Positions 3,156-29,209 of a stretch of DNA of 34,905 nt are shown piece after piece. The translations under genes and the position numbers were made by a program. The first letter of the stretch is position 1, and each line of letters starts with the position of its first letter. Below the pieces are notes generated by a model. That model was not told where the DNA came from. It saw only the letters and a list, made by a program, of their open reading frames with translations, and did not search any database. The DNA comes from a virus: IMG/VR virus record IMGVR_UViG_3300042542_001079, positions 1 through 34,905 of that record. The stretch is one strand, 5' to 3'.

Positions 3156-3222
3156 AATGTTATATTATAGGCACTGGTTCAAAATAATCAGTGTTTCAAC
3201 AACAAACTAAACAGGTGTTCAT

Positions 3223-3462
3223 ATGACTATTCAAGTGACTAAAATTGGCAATATCGATAATGGTATCGATGGTTCAGAGGAATATCTTTTATTGACTGAT
3301 TCAGAGGATAACTTAACTGAAAATCAAGCATGGGAATACCTACACCCATTGGTGTATCGTGATACCAATGATGCAGGGGCATACTTTTGCCACACTGTTA
3401 GAACATTGCAAAAAACCGATAACTCAGTGGTTTGCATTGTTTATCACCAATACAATGTATAA
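3223..3462 (+). CDS. Hypothetical early protein
   Basis: A 79-aa acidic soluble protein without a recognised domain. The start is set by the ribosome binding site context ACAGGTGTTCAT, the same module that precedes most genes of this block. It is the first gene after the iteron region and is followed by regulatory cassette I. No function can be proposed. Confidence 0.75.
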   Translation: MTIQVTKIGNIDNGIDGSEEYLLLTDSEDNLTENQAWEYLHPLVYRDTNDAGAYFCHTVRTLQKTDNSVVCIVYHQYNV

Positions 3463-3465
3463 ATT

Positions 3466-3539
3466 CTAGGGTTTATGGCATTGGAAACAGTGCCATTACA
3501 CCTAGGGATTTTCCTAGGGATTTTTGATAGGTGTTAATG
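3466..3539 (+). promoter_or_regulatory. Intergenic RNA cassette I, upstream of the ArdC-N-like gene
   Basis: First, ATGGCATT (3475-3482) pairs with AGTGCCAT (3489-3496) around the loop GGAAAC. Next come two CCTAGG palindromes (3501-3506, 3513-3518) that can pair with each other. Last is the ribosome binding site TAGGTGT (3528-3534), exactly complementary to ACACCTA (3498-3504). The CCTAGG hairpin and the ribosome-site hairpin share bases 3501-3504, so only one can form. Cassette II (4883-4954) has the same layout. Confidence 0.6.
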
Positions 3540-3845
3540 ATGGATAAACAACTGCAACAATTGGAAAGCCTACAAAGGGCTAAAAATGGTGATTCACTAT
3601 TGAATTACCCTAGCATAATGACTGGTTTTATCGCAAAGGGTATCAACCCTAGCGACATAATCCCTAGGGAAAATGTATTCACCTATAACGCATGGAAAGC
3701 CTTAAACAGGCAGGTAAAAAAGGGTGAGCATGGGGTTAAAGTAGTCACATGGATAGATGCACACGATAAAACCACTGGTTTACCTACAAAATTGTGCCGT
3801 TCATCTACAGTTTTCCATGTGTCTCAAACTGAATTGATTCAATAA
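3540..3845 (+). CDS. Stand-alone ArdC N-terminal-like (antirestriction/ssDNA-binding) protein
   Basis: A 101-aa protein. Residues 46-73 (VFTYNAWKALNRQVKKGEHG followed by VKVVTWI) and 88-98 (RSSTVFHVSQT) match the pattern of the ArdC N-terminal domain (DUF1738), which binds single-stranded DNA in plasmid antirestriction proteins. The C-terminal metallopeptidase domain of ArdC is absent, so this is the binding domain alone. It may protect entering DNA or coat replication intermediates. The ATG at 3540 is preferred over 3537 because it gives the 6-base spacing to AGGTG seen at neighbouring genes. Confidence 0.75.
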   Translation: MDKQLQQLESLQRAKNGDSLLNYPSIMTGFIAKGINPSDIIPRENVFTYNAWKALNRQVKKGEHGVKVVTWIDAHDKTTGLPTKLCRSSTVFHVSQTELIQ

Positions 3846-3856
3846 ACAATAGGTTT

Positions 3857-3936
3857 ATAACTCTTAGAATTCTAGGGGTTATATGCCTAGGGGTTTCCTA
3901 GGGATTCAATCAATCATTTTTTAATAGGTGTTCAAA
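3857..3936 (+). promoter_or_regulatory. Intergenic RNA cassette III, upstream of the gene at 3937
   Basis: An 11-pair hairpin (3857-3882, arms ATAACTCTTAG and CTAGGGGTTAT, loop AATT, two G-U pairs) is followed by two CCTAGG palindromes (near 3886 and 3897) and the ribosome site AATAGGTGTT. The order matches cassettes I and II, but the complement to the ribosome site is only four bases (CCTA), so the second switch element is weaker here. Confidence 0.45.
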
Positions 3937-4188
3937 ATGACAAATCAACAAATCAAAGCCTTGCAAAGCATAGGCAAAGGAATCATAGAATCATGCAATA
4001 TTGATTCAATCGGTGCACCTAGTGGTGCAATATATGCCGCATTAATGGGGCATGGTGCATCATTAAATCAGTTTCAATCAATTATGGATACCCTTGTGCG
4101 TAGTGGTTTTTTAACGCATGATGCCGATTGTCAAACCTATCATGCCACTGATTCAGGCATTGCATGGTCAAACAAAGTAGGGGCATAA
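3937..4188 (+). CDS. Small winged-helix-like hypothetical protein
   Basis: An 83-aa protein. The pattern GAPSGAIYAALMGHGASLNQ, then a helix ending in LVRSGFLTHD and a short YHATDSG hairpin, resembles a winged helix, as in small phage and plasmid DNA-binding proteins. An upstream in-frame GTG (3928) lies inside the ribosome binding site, so the ATG at 3937 (AATAGGTGTTCAAA in front) is the start. Function unknown; transcription control is inference. Confidence 0.7.
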   Translation: MTNQQIKALQSIGKGIIESCNIDSIGAPSGAIYAALMGHGASLNQFQSIMDTLVRSGFLTHDADCQTYHATDSGIAWSNKVGA

Positions 4189-4189
4189 A

Positions 4190-4315
4190 ATGAAACCTAC
4201 ACAATGCACAATCACTGGTTACTGGTATGTCACTGGTTACATTACTGGTAGAAAATATTGGGGGGCTAATCCTAGGGATTGTGTACAAAATGCACAATTG
4301 TATTTTTACCAATAA
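4190..4315 (+). CDS. Small hypothetical protein, 41 aa
   Basis: Begins one base after the previous stop and reads MKPTQCTITGYWYVTGY and onward, with three repeats of a T/V-ITG-Y/R type motif and many aromatic residues. No membrane helix and no known domain. The tight spacing suggests coupled translation. The reading frame holds one CCTAGG motif near 4270. Confidence 0.5.
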   Translation: MKPTQCTITGYWYVTGYITGRKYWGANPRDCVQNAQLYFYQ

Positions 4316-4336
4316 CTAGGGTTTATCCCTATGGTG

Positions 4337-4349
4337 TAGTGTCTTACAC
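4337..4349 (+). promoter_or_regulatory. TAGTGTCTTACAC regulatory site
   Basis: This variant of the repeated site is a full dyad, TAGTGT-CTT-ACACTA (4337-4351), so it can act as a DNA operator or fold into a 6-pair hairpin. It lies between the gene ending at 4315 and the ribosome site of the gene at 4390. Confidence 0.45.
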
Positions 4350-4389
4350 TATCCTACATTCAATCATCATTCATTCAATAGGTGTTCAT

Positions 4390-4569
4390 ATGACAAAAAT
4401 TAAAGAATTCAAGCATGGTTATGCGACATTCGAAAAATTGTTTCCATCGGGTATGTATCTGGTTCAGTGCTATATAGGCACTGAATTGCACGATAAGATT
4501 CGATGCGATGACTATCAAACTGCAATGCAATACTACAAAGCATTTTCCAATATTGCCAAAAACTCTTAA
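4390..4569 (+). CDS. Hypothetical early protein, 59 aa
   Basis: Starts at the ATG after AATAGGTGTTCAT. The frame is open further upstream, but that part is leader with the regulatory dyad. The product is small and soluble (MTKIKEFKHGYATFEKLFP at the start), reading like a small beta-alpha domain. No recognised family. Confidence 0.65.
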   Translation: MTKIKEFKHGYATFEKLFPSGMYLVQCYIGTELHDKIRCDDYQTAMQYYKAFSNIAKNS

Positions 4570-4580
4570 TAGGTGTAAAA

Positions 4581-4796
4581 ATGAAACAGTATTTCACATT
4601 CAACAATTTGCAAGATGCGTTAAATTATCGGCATGATAATGGTTTAGGCGGATGGATATTTGCCCCTGAAAATGATAAACCTAATTTTTATCCATACCAT
4701 GATGTAATTTTATTCCCTAGTGAATTCCCGCCTAGTGCAATTTTTAACCATCCATTTACTAAAGGTCGCACTGGTAAACTGGTAGGGGCACAATAA
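4581..4796 (+). CDS. Hypothetical early protein, 71 aa
   Basis: A 71-aa protein rich in Asn, Pro and aromatic residues, starting after AATAGGTGTAAAA. Its stop overlaps the start of the next small gene (TAATG). No domain recognised. Confidence 0.65.
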   Translation: MKQYFTFNNLQDALNYRHDNGLGGWIFAPENDKPNFYPYHDVILFPSEFPPSAIFNHPFTKGRTGKLVGAQ

Positions 4797-4879
4797 TGGA
4801 ATCAATCGACAAAATTGTGATATGGGTAAGCCTTACAGGGTTTATTTGTCTTATGCTAATCATAGGGATATGGGGCTAA
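4796..4879 (+). CDS. 27-aa single-pass membrane peptide
   Basis: The ATG overlaps the stop of the gene before it. After MESIDK the rest is one hydrophobic helix (IVIWVSLTGFICLMLIIGIWG). Such peptides are common in phage early operons and may act at the host membrane, for example in superinfection exclusion. Evidence is limited to the overlap and composition. Confidence 0.5.
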   Translation: MESIDKIVIWVSLTGFICLMLIIGIWG

Positions 4880-4882
4880 AAA

Positions 4883-4954
4883 CTAGGGTTTAGGGTATTG
4901 TTAGCAGTACCCTAACACCTAGGCATTTTCCTAGGCATTCAATAGGTGTTAAAA
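4883..4954 (+). promoter_or_regulatory. Intergenic RNA cassette II, upstream of the sliding-clamp gene
   Basis: TAGGGTATT (4891-4899) pairs with AGTACCCTA (4906-4914) around the loop GTTAGC. Compared with cassette I, two base pairs of this stem have changed on both sides (T-A to G-C, C-G to T-A), which is compensatory change. Two CCTAGG palindromes follow (4918-4923, 4930-4935). The ribosome site TAGGTGTT (4943-4950) is an exact 8-base complement of AACACCTA (4914-4921). The CCTAGG hairpin and the ribosome-site hairpin are mutually exclusive. Confidence 0.65.
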
Positions 4955-5610: not shown

Positions 5611-5629
5611 GGGCACAATGTGCCCTTTT
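5611..5629 (+). terminator. Intrinsic terminator after the clamp gene
   Basis: GGGCAC-AAT-GTGCCC (5611-5625) followed by TTTT. It lies 15 bases after the clamp stop and before the gene at 5666; a weak U-tract suggests partial termination. Confidence 0.65.
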
Positions 5630-5665
5630 GCCTGTGCTTTTACAGGGTTTTAAATAGGTGTTGAC

Positions 5666-5968
5666 ATGATTAAACCGACAGATTTCACGAAAATTAAACA
5701 TGATGTAAATGGCAACCCTCGCTATGTTTGCCACTACTTAAACTTAAATACAGACCTAGAGGCATCCACTACTATGGGTTGGGATGCAAACGGAAAACTA
5801 TTATTTGATAAGTATCAAATAGCCCTAGATAGAGCAAAAAAACTAGGTGGGCGCAAATTCCACAATAAGCAATATGGCGGGGGCATTGTTTTTAGGTGTG
5901 TTTATAACCTTGATAACCTTTGCGCTCAAATTAATGAATTGACCAACAATCAAGAGGTGACAGCATGA
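5666..5968 (+). CDS. Hypothetical early protein, 100 aa
   Basis: Starts after AAATAGGTGTTGAC. Soluble, with a GGRKFHNKQYGGGIVFRC stretch near residue 61-78; no known domain. It heads a group of four genes joined by 4-base ATGA overlaps (5965, 6159, 6422), each with the same GAGGTGACAGC or GAGGTGTCAGC ribosome-site block at the end of the gene before it. Confidence 0.7.
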   Translation: MIKPTDFTKIKHDVNGNPRYVCHYLNLNTDLEASTTMGWDANGKLLFDKYQIALDRAKKLGGRKFHNKQYGGGIVFRCVYNLDNLCAQINELTNNQEVTA

Positions 5969-28185: not shown

Positions 28186-28206
28186 TTTGATTTCTCCTAA
28201 TAGGTT

Positions 28207-28247
28207 AAAAAAGTCCCCCTACCCCTATTGCTAGAGATAGGAGGGAC
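28207..28247 (-). terminator. Intrinsic terminator after the capsid gene
   Basis: On the minus strand GTCCCTCCTA (28247-28238) pairs with TAGGGGGAC (28221-28213), then TTTTTT (28212-28207). It lies just after the capsid stop and should limit downstream expression relative to capsid. Confidence 0.7.
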
Positions 28248-28255
28248 AACTGCAA

Positions 28256-29209
28256 TTAGGCTGGAACGATCAAAGCAAACATTGATGCAGACTTAGCCGC
28301 ACCAGTGCTTGCCGCTGAACGCAGAATTTGCACTCCATACAGCGTGTCTGCTGTGTACAAAGTTGCAAGGTACGGCTGTTGGTACTGAACTTGTGAGCGA
28401 ATAGCCACTTGTTCAACCAAAACCAGTGAGTCTTTATGACCCATCAAGCAAACTCGTGCATTGTTAGTACCTGATGCTGTGTCGCAATTGCTTGAGACAA
28501 ACACAGGGATACCATACAAGTTACCGATCTCACCTGTGCGAATGGTACTGTTTGTACCACCAACAAAGGCTTGTTCAGTGTAACGAGCCAAACCCATTAA
28601 AGTGTTGCGGCTTGATGGAGGAATCAAGAAGAAACGCTGATCCATTGGGGTATCAGTGTCATCAAGACGCTGAATAGTGCGGCGAATAGCGGCATCGGTC
28701 AATGCTGACTCATTGTTGCTTGCGGCAACATAAGCAGTAGTACCATCACCACCAATAAACGCACCAGTTGCATAAGTATTTGTACCACCACCGCCATTGG
28801 TTGAACGACCCAACTGAACCAAGTCAGTATCGACTTGTTTAGCCAAAGCGTAACCAGCGTCAGATGTGTAGAAGTTACGCAAGCTGTTCAAGGCTTGGGC
28901 TTCGACAATATCCTCAATCAAGCGGCTGTATTCGTAATGCTTATTGATAGAAACTTGAACTTCAGACTCTGTAGCGGCAATCAAAGTGACTGCTGTTTCA
29001 GCGGCTTTAGCAGAAGCAGAACCACGGGTAGGTGCAGGGATGTGAACTACATCACCCTTCTTACCTTTAAAGTTCATCTTCATAACCAAGTTAGCTAAAA
29101 CGAGGTTTTTCTTGTAAGCCGCAACGATTTCATCTGACCAAATTTCTGGGATGAATTTTTCAGCGGTTGTTACCGTAACTGAGTTTGTGGGGGAAAATGA
29201 TGTTGCCAT
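28256..29209 (-). CDS. Major capsid protein, 317 aa
   Basis: N-terminus TSFSPTNSVTVTTAEKFIPE, then IWSDEIVAAYKKNLVLANLV, the GKKGDVVHIPAP loop, and INKHYEYSRLIEDIVEAQ fit the family of single-gene podovirus capsids with an HK97-type fold. Further support is the gene order scaffold then capsid, an excellent ribosome site (GGAGATTTAAC) and a terminator right after the stop, as expected for the most abundant virion protein. No protease or cleavage site was seen. Confidence 0.85.
   Translation of the reverse strand: MATSFSPTNSVTVTTAEKFIPEIWSDEIVAAYKKNLVLANLVMKMNFKGKKGDVVHIPAPTRGSASAKAAETAVTLIAATESEVQVSINKHYEYSRLIEDIVEAQALNSLRNFYTSDAGYALAKQVDTDLVQLGRSTNGGGGTNTYATGAFIGGDGTTAYVAASNNESALTDAAIRRTIQRLDDTDTPMDQRFFLIPPSSRNTLMGLARYTEQAFVGGTNSTIRTGEIGNLYGIPVFVSSNCDTASGTNNARVCLMGHKDSLVLVEQVAIRSQVQYQQPYLATLYTADTLYGVQILRSAASTGAAKSASMFALIVPA

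Follow-up and report, generated by a model that had tools for sequence, protein, structure and literature searches.

What is the signal that recurs between the early genes of this virus, and does it serve particular genes or the junctions between them? The window, i.e., the whole 34,905-base stretch analyzed (uncultured virus record IMGVR_UViG_3300042542_001079), belongs to a group of uncultured freshwater bacterial viruses and carries late genes on its minus strand and, from position 3223 onward, a block of small early genes on its plus strand, the labels “early” and “late” having been assigned from gene content. Junctions of the early block that are free of the elements described here are mostly 4-nt overlaps or gaps of 1–11 nt; the elements themselves occupy the space from the upstream gene's stop codon to the next gene's ribosome site (Table 1). 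A first-pass annotation had read three of these spaces as intergenic RNA cassettes whose ribosome site could be switched off by an upstream complement, possibly as one shared signal for three genes. Its description of the sequence stands, with small corrections: cassettes I (3466–3539) and II (4883–4954) do share order and sequence (hairpin, CCTAGG pair, ribosome site), both partners are exchanged at two pairs of their first stems (U-A to G-C and C-G to U-A), and the ACACCTA complement of the ribosome site is found in both. Cassette III, spanning 3850–3936 overall, keeps the part order of I and II, its stem being one of 12 bp (3856–3883) rather than the 11 pairs reported, and it has TGCCTAGG, not ACACCTA.

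Table 1. Coordinates of the elements and neighboring genes in the window.
Feature	Start	End	Strand	Remarks
ORF ahead of element I	3223	3462	+	its stop codon is followed by 3 nt, then CTAGG
Element I, arm A, CTAGG	3466	3470	+	can pair with arm B 3501–3505 in the consensus fold
Element I, hairpin 1, TTATGGCATTG-GAAA-CAGTGCCATTA	3473	3498	+	one U.U mismatch
Element I, hairpin 2	3501	3518	+	arm B CCTAGG 3501–3506, arm C CCTAGG 3513–3518
Ribosome site TAGGTGTT of ArdC-N-like gene	3528	3535	+	ATG 3540; alternative ATG 3537
ArdC N-terminal-domain-like gene after element I	3540	3845	+	101 aa; Pfam ArdcN E 7e-7, partial (34 residues)
Element III, arm A and hairpin 1	3850	3883	+	arm A TAGGT 3850–3854; hairpin 1 3856–3883 (12 bp)
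Element III, hairpin 2, CCTAGG-GGTTT-CCTAGG	3886	3902	+	
Gene after element III	3937	4188	+	83 aa; no confident family
Element IV	4316	4356	+	hairpin 1 TAGGGTTTATCCCTA 4317–4331, hairpin 2 4332–4356; before ATG 4390
Element II, arm A, CTAGG	4883	4887	+	3 nt past a TAA
Element II, hairpin 1, TTAGGGTATTG-TTAG-CAGTACCCTAA	4890	4915	+	11 bp
Element II, hairpin 2, CCTAGG-CATTTT-CCTAGG	4918	4935	+	arms 4918–4923/4930–4935
Ribosome site TAGGTGTT of clamp-like gene	4943	4950	+	
Clamp-like gene	4955	5596	+	213 aa
Element V	5611	5646	+	hairpins 5611–5625 and 5631–5646; before ATG 5666

Elements IV and V are two members of the window set beyond the three annotated initially. The gaps holding I, III and IV score as tandem hairpins at p = 0.01–0.02 against dinucleotide shuffles (IV at 0.01), and that of V at p = 0.05. 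A covariance model built from 21 copies, elements I and II being among them, gives 78.6 bits for I, 80.2 for II and 24.6 for III. The ribosome site TAGGTGTT has 8 matches vs 1.2 expected, a number reached in none of 100 shuffles. As for the genes served, the clamp-like protein matches Pfam DNA_pol3_beta_2 below the cut-off and the PHROG “DNA polymerase processivity factor” at E 5e-6; its top PHROG is named after a RusA-like Holliday junction resolvase, which may be a mis-annotation, Pfam and the annotation of P400 indicating a beta clamp of DNA polymerase III. The winged-helix reading of the gene after element III could not be confirmed. Directly after element V, 5666–5968 strongly matches Pfam TreK (E 4e-18), a terminal-repeat-encoded protein of Staphylococcus phages, to which the window phage is otherwise unrelated.

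Related IMG/VR contigs supplied 45 loci via the clamp-like gene and 47 via the ArdC-N-like gene, and two DNA patterns retrieved 15 and 99 stretches; these contigs are fragments, their genes were called by a simple caller made for this analysis, and the partly overlapping loci (designated by L numbers below) were reduced by identity. In total, 311 elements were found in 175 loci, 240 of them distinct, ahead of 46 downstream protein families, which makes the notion of one shared signal for three genes too narrow. Most readable clamp leaders carry a two-hairpin element ahead of the clamp gene, in one of three sequence classes: A (CTAGG-hairpin-CCTAGG pair), B (GGGTAAG...GATGC...GCATC) and C ((T/C/A)AGACTG-hairpin-TGGCCT...); among the clamp leaders compared, those of L033, L035 and L044–L047 have no element upstream of the clamp gene. 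L044 and L046, distant relatives with a clamp ~45% identical, do show the GACTG-hairpin-hairpin layout in the space downstream of the clamp-like gene, ahead of ATG 4330 and 5702; their hairpin 2 (GGCGT...ACGCC) is very dissimilar, and the architecture therefore outlives the sequence. Up to five called elements follow one another in a contig, every one lying after a stop codon and ahead of the ribosome site that comes next. Over the 240 distinct copies, the median distance from stop codon to hairpin 1 is 8 nt and that from hairpin 2 to the ATG 25 nt (19–34 for the 10–90% range), the two hairpins being directly adjacent in 179 and 0–2 nt apart in 215. Between hairpin 2 and the Shine-Dalgarno site lies a U/A-rich, G-poor spacer (49% T, 4% G), a composition that an open ribosome landing site would be expected to have.

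Hairpin 1 (~11–13 bp) and the abutting hairpin 2 (~6–7 bp) are conserved as RNA by compensatory change, so that the first-pass idea of an intergenic cassette family with compensatory stems is borne out, for a family larger than was claimed. Across the 21 distinct copies of class A, 98.3% of the cells of both hairpins are paired and double changes occur at 7 pairs (5 of the 11 in hairpin 1), with a covariation of 0.290 vs 0.112 ± 0.015 in shuffled alignments, none of 500 of which reach it; slid registers drop to 0.03–0.07. The outermost pair of hairpin 1 is U-A, U-G, A-U, C-G or G-C, depending on the copy, and hairpin 2 is compensated at its inner pair in L004 (G-C to C-G) and L012 (to U-A) and at its outer pair in L077 (C-G to U-A), while L076 has CCTACA/TGTAGG, i.e., the palindrome is gone and the hairpin kept. 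The ArdC leader of L077 even retains the CTAGG and CCTAGG arms around a different 12-bp stem in place of hairpin 1. Among the cells of class A pairs, 39 are G.U and 1 is A.C. Of 373 gaps of 50–110 nt on the element-bearing strand, 306 fold better locally as coding strand and 67 as the reverse complement, vs 71 and 75, respectively, of 146 gaps on the opposite strand; therefore, selection acts on the RNA. Tandem hairpins (p <= 0.05) are likewise found in 109 of 186 early-strand gaps vs 6 of 77 other-strand gaps. Sequence-specific recognition of the loops was considered and rejected, those of hairpin 1 varying freely (GAAA, TTAG, TCAAT, CTTG, TTTGA).

The middle CCTAGG arm (B) has a third competitor that had been overlooked, the CTAGG-like arm A upstream of hairpin 1, and covariation among the copies shows that arm B has an alternative partner in arm A, a pairing that lengthens hairpin 1 and excludes hairpin 2. 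A.B is less strongly supported than hairpins 1 and 2: in class A it is trivially possible, as all three arms are CCTAGG-like, and in class C it rests on one variable pair, that of the first base of arm A (3 bases upstream of the conserved ACTG) with the fourth base of arm B, which is U-A in 26 copies, C-G in 8, A-U in 7 and mismatched in 1. Hairpin 1 and the A.B helix of the 42 class C copies are nevertheless 99.7% paired, with a covariation of 0.390 vs 0.115 ± 0.012 (0 of 500 shuffles), 2 of the 42 breaking one pair of the helix, and arm B still pairs with arm C, as AAG...CCTTGG...CCAAGG and CAG...CCTGC...GCAGG change together. A larger set gives A/B states of T/A 83, A/T 14, C/G 6 and G/A 2, the T/A count being inflated by the retrieval pattern, and in relatives of element IV CTACACC/GGTGTAG alternates with CTATGCC/GGTATAG, i.e., the upstream arm covaries. 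Permuting partners among copies yields p = 0.0005 for both A.B and B.C; these tests ignore phylogeny, and because the copies are related, the p values overstate their independence. In classes C and A, most copies have arm A 1–5 nt past the stop codon of the preceding gene, the distance being 4 nt in 25 of 42 copies and 3 nt in 8 of 11, respectively.

The element is a generic gene-junction module and not the operator of a single gene. Element pairs that are at least 90% identical precede unrelated proteins in 483 cases and related ones in 408, and window element I ahead of ArdC has an identical counterpart ahead of the MTINIIKI gene of L054. Conversely, the leader of the METKNEID gene is of class A in L077 but of another kind in L050. 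Near-identical elements before unrelated genes therefore indicate that it is the junction that is served, whichever gene follows.

Our preferred reading, to which we would assign a probability of roughly 0.4, is that the cassettes may be modular cis-acting RNAs placed at the junctions of an early polycistronic mRNA, where they would act as ribosome-responsive insulating or processing spacers. The element would separate the ribosome ending one gene from that starting the next, so that ribosomes would enter each gene independently, where other junctions have stop–start overlaps. The footprint of a terminating ribosome would cover the position 3–4 nt past the stop codon, where arm A lies; a ribosome at the stop codon might thus favor hairpin 2, and with no ribosome there the long A.B hairpin could form. 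Blocking arm A in silico raised the median probability of hairpin 2 from 0.30 to 0.99, with the ribosome step simulated solely as an unpaired constraint and blocking of a competitor raising its rival by construction, and ribosome-site access was 0.49 vs 0.48. Because the ribosome site is predicted to be equally accessible in both folds, an output on transcript continuity or stability is likelier than the masking of start sites, and pausing or partial termination, cleavage and end protection would be the candidates. The tight spacing from the stop codon could also simply be genome compaction. A bolder version, an undescribed gene-independent RNA class in which the ribosome at the stop codon would set the twin-hairpin fold via the three arms, and hence the expression of the next gene, as the standard connector of exchangeable early-gene modules, is conceivable from the sequences, albeit doubtful.

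Termination and RNase cleavage are serious rivals of the ribosome-responsive spacer. If the elements were transcription attenuators, hairpin 2 and the following U's would form a weak intrinsic terminator and A.B the anti-terminator, yielding a step-down from gene to gene; the logic of arms A, B and C matches, at least 5 T are found within the 8 nt after hairpin 2 in 144 of 240 copies, a lenient terminator scan is passed by hairpin 2 of element I and both hairpins of element V, and CCTAGGGTTTTTTT is read in some ArdC leaders. Yet just 18 of 95 have 5 T in a row, a control stretch 8–10 nt downstream has almost the same T content (at least 5 T in 88 of 193; no difference at 6), element II is devoid of a U tract, and stems of 6–7 bp are short for terminators. 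As the U's after hairpin 2 are hardly commoner than those further down the spacer, most copies look like poor terminators, which makes attenuation unlikely as a general explanation, even if some copies, e.g., element I, could terminate weakly; as classical terminators the elements are doubtful candidates, the U run being confined to a minority and the stems weak. A role in RNA processing or stability, in which the long A.B hairpin would undergo RNase III-type cleavage or the hairpins would protect mRNA ends, would fit the intercistronic placement within an early operon, the A.B-extended hairpins of ~16–18 bp, which contain a single internal mismatch or loop in classes A, III and C, and the variable loops and stem letters, which suggest that shape, not sequence, is recognized; we nonetheless consider it rather improbable, as hairpin 1 by itself is short for RNase III and the conserved competing hairpin 2 would be left unexplained.

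The remaining explanations fare far worse. The first-pass annotation held that ACACCTA pairs with TAGGTGT, excludes hairpin 2 and turns translation off; its mutually exclusive folds survive, with the arm after the stop codon, and not the ribosome site, as the second partner that couples (p = 0.0005). The complement is exact in I and II, and in class A the middle arm shows a slightly closer match to the ribosome site of its own copy than to permuted sites (p = 0.04, a weak value from related copies), but class C gives p = 0.78, cassette III is missing the complement, and access to the site is the same in both folds. Moreover, CACCT lies upstream in only 13 of 111 AGGTG leaders (vs 1 of 114 leaders without AGGTG, the association being carried by related class A leaders), and a 7-nt complement of the ribosome site in 0 of 225 leaders. 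The pairing is lost in both directions, L011 showing the very loss that the first-pass annotation had named as refuting it (AGGTG kept, CACC lost, with CTTCCTAGG in place of CACCTAGG), and L003, L004, L006, L049, L050 and L054 keeping CACCTAG with a ribosome site of AAAGGCTT or GAGGCTT, which leaves such a switch very improbable. DNA-level elements, either palindromic operators or recombination joints for gene swapping, might be suggested by the CCTAGG palindromes, by the exchange of genes beside near-identical elements and by the Sak-type annealing protein and YqaJ nuclease that the window phage encodes. Pairs kept with G.U and almost never A.C, the stronger folding of the coding strand, and hairpin 2 forms without the CCTAGG palindrome (CCTGC...GCAGG, CCTACA...TGTAGG) render this reading scarcely credible, and swapping mediated by joints may be a by-product. 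Antitermination, with the two stem-loops binding the elongating RNA polymerase in the manner of HK022 put RNA, would account for a directly adjacent stem-loop pair in early phage transcripts, but is highly unlikely given that put is neither serial before genes nor beside ribosome sites and that up to five elements per contig are seen here.

Several other features of the window deserve mention in their own right. Ahead of the first early gene (ATG 3223), 3168–3195 holds one hairpin only, CACTGGTTCAAAATAATCAGTG; the L054 homologue of this gene is preceded by a full twin-hairpin element instead. The non-coding late/early gene boundary at 2880–2960 contains the repeats AAGTAAGTACTCACTTAC / AAGTAAGCACTC / AGTAAGCACTTACT, possible origin or operator sites. 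On the minus strand, 2497–2780 is a candidate non-coding RNA of ~270 nt, highly structured, for which neither a convincing ORF nor an Rfam match was found; it has long invariant blocks, with identity down to ~69% in L071, L064, L052, L169, L159, L102 and L100, and a multi-branch consensus fold with double changes at 6 pairs, one entire branch (~25 columns) being missing from L169, L159, L102 and L100. Also on the minus strand, 28189–28258 after the major capsid gene has a significant tandem-hairpin score and a strong hairpin with a T-rich tail, resembling an ordinary terminator.

Similarity of phage records to the region is limited to 58–59 bases within one gene, no element was seen in 10 gaps of BcepC6B, P400 and Acinetobacter phage 4316, which have distant clamp-like genes, and no relative came up when genome contigs were scanned with an alignment of the clamp-like protein. 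The element has no match in Rfam at curated score, and no description of tandem hairpins before phage start codons was found in the open-licence literature. What emerges is an abundant and strongly covarying RNA family, absent from Rfam and placed before 46 protein families. If it insulates junctions or senses ribosomes, it would account for the ability of phages to exchange early genes without upsetting the expression of their neighbors and would offer a natural portable part to separate the genes of an operon.

Among known systems, amino-acid operon attenuators have three arms with mutually exclusive pairings and a ribosome position alongside, and the elements share the three mutually exclusive arms beside a ribosome position; unlike them, they have no leader peptide with regulatory codons, lack the U tract in many copies, and sit at internal gene junctions rather than at the operon start. 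The early mRNA of T7, a polycistronic phage transcript, has intercistronic RNase III sites with hairpins, and hairpins between the genes of an early polycistronic mRNA are seen here too, as putative cleavage sites, although hairpin 1 is shorter and a second, competing hairpin is conserved. From a translational switch that sequesters its ribosome site, the elements differ in that the Shine-Dalgarno complement is not conserved (L004, L006, L011, L054). The put RNA of HK022, ~70 nt of early phage transcript with two stem-loops, is present twice per genome downstream of early promoters and acts on RNA polymerase (the beta' zinc-binding domain), suppressing termination (PMC9378689); the elements resemble it in being an adjacent stem-loop pair of ~70 nt in an early transcript, and depart from it in being serial copies at gene junctions next to ribosome sites. 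Similar in placement are the start-associated sequences (SAS) of Cluster K mycobacteriophages, a conserved 13-bp ribosome-site motif, GGGATAGGAGCCC (Pope et al. 2011, PMC3203893). SAS and extended SAS directly precede the starts of numerous non-structural genes from different families, the extended SAS adding 17-bp inverted repeats upstream of the ribosome site, for which the authors found RNA pairing to be little supported (PMC3203893). The twin-hairpin element is similarly repeated immediately upstream of the starts of many genes; however, the 13-bp motif was not found in the element leaders or the ribosome-site table, and, in contrast to the extended SAS, RNA covariation is strong here, the letters drifting while the pairing is kept, in two abutting hairpins accompanied by an arm beside the upstream stop codon.
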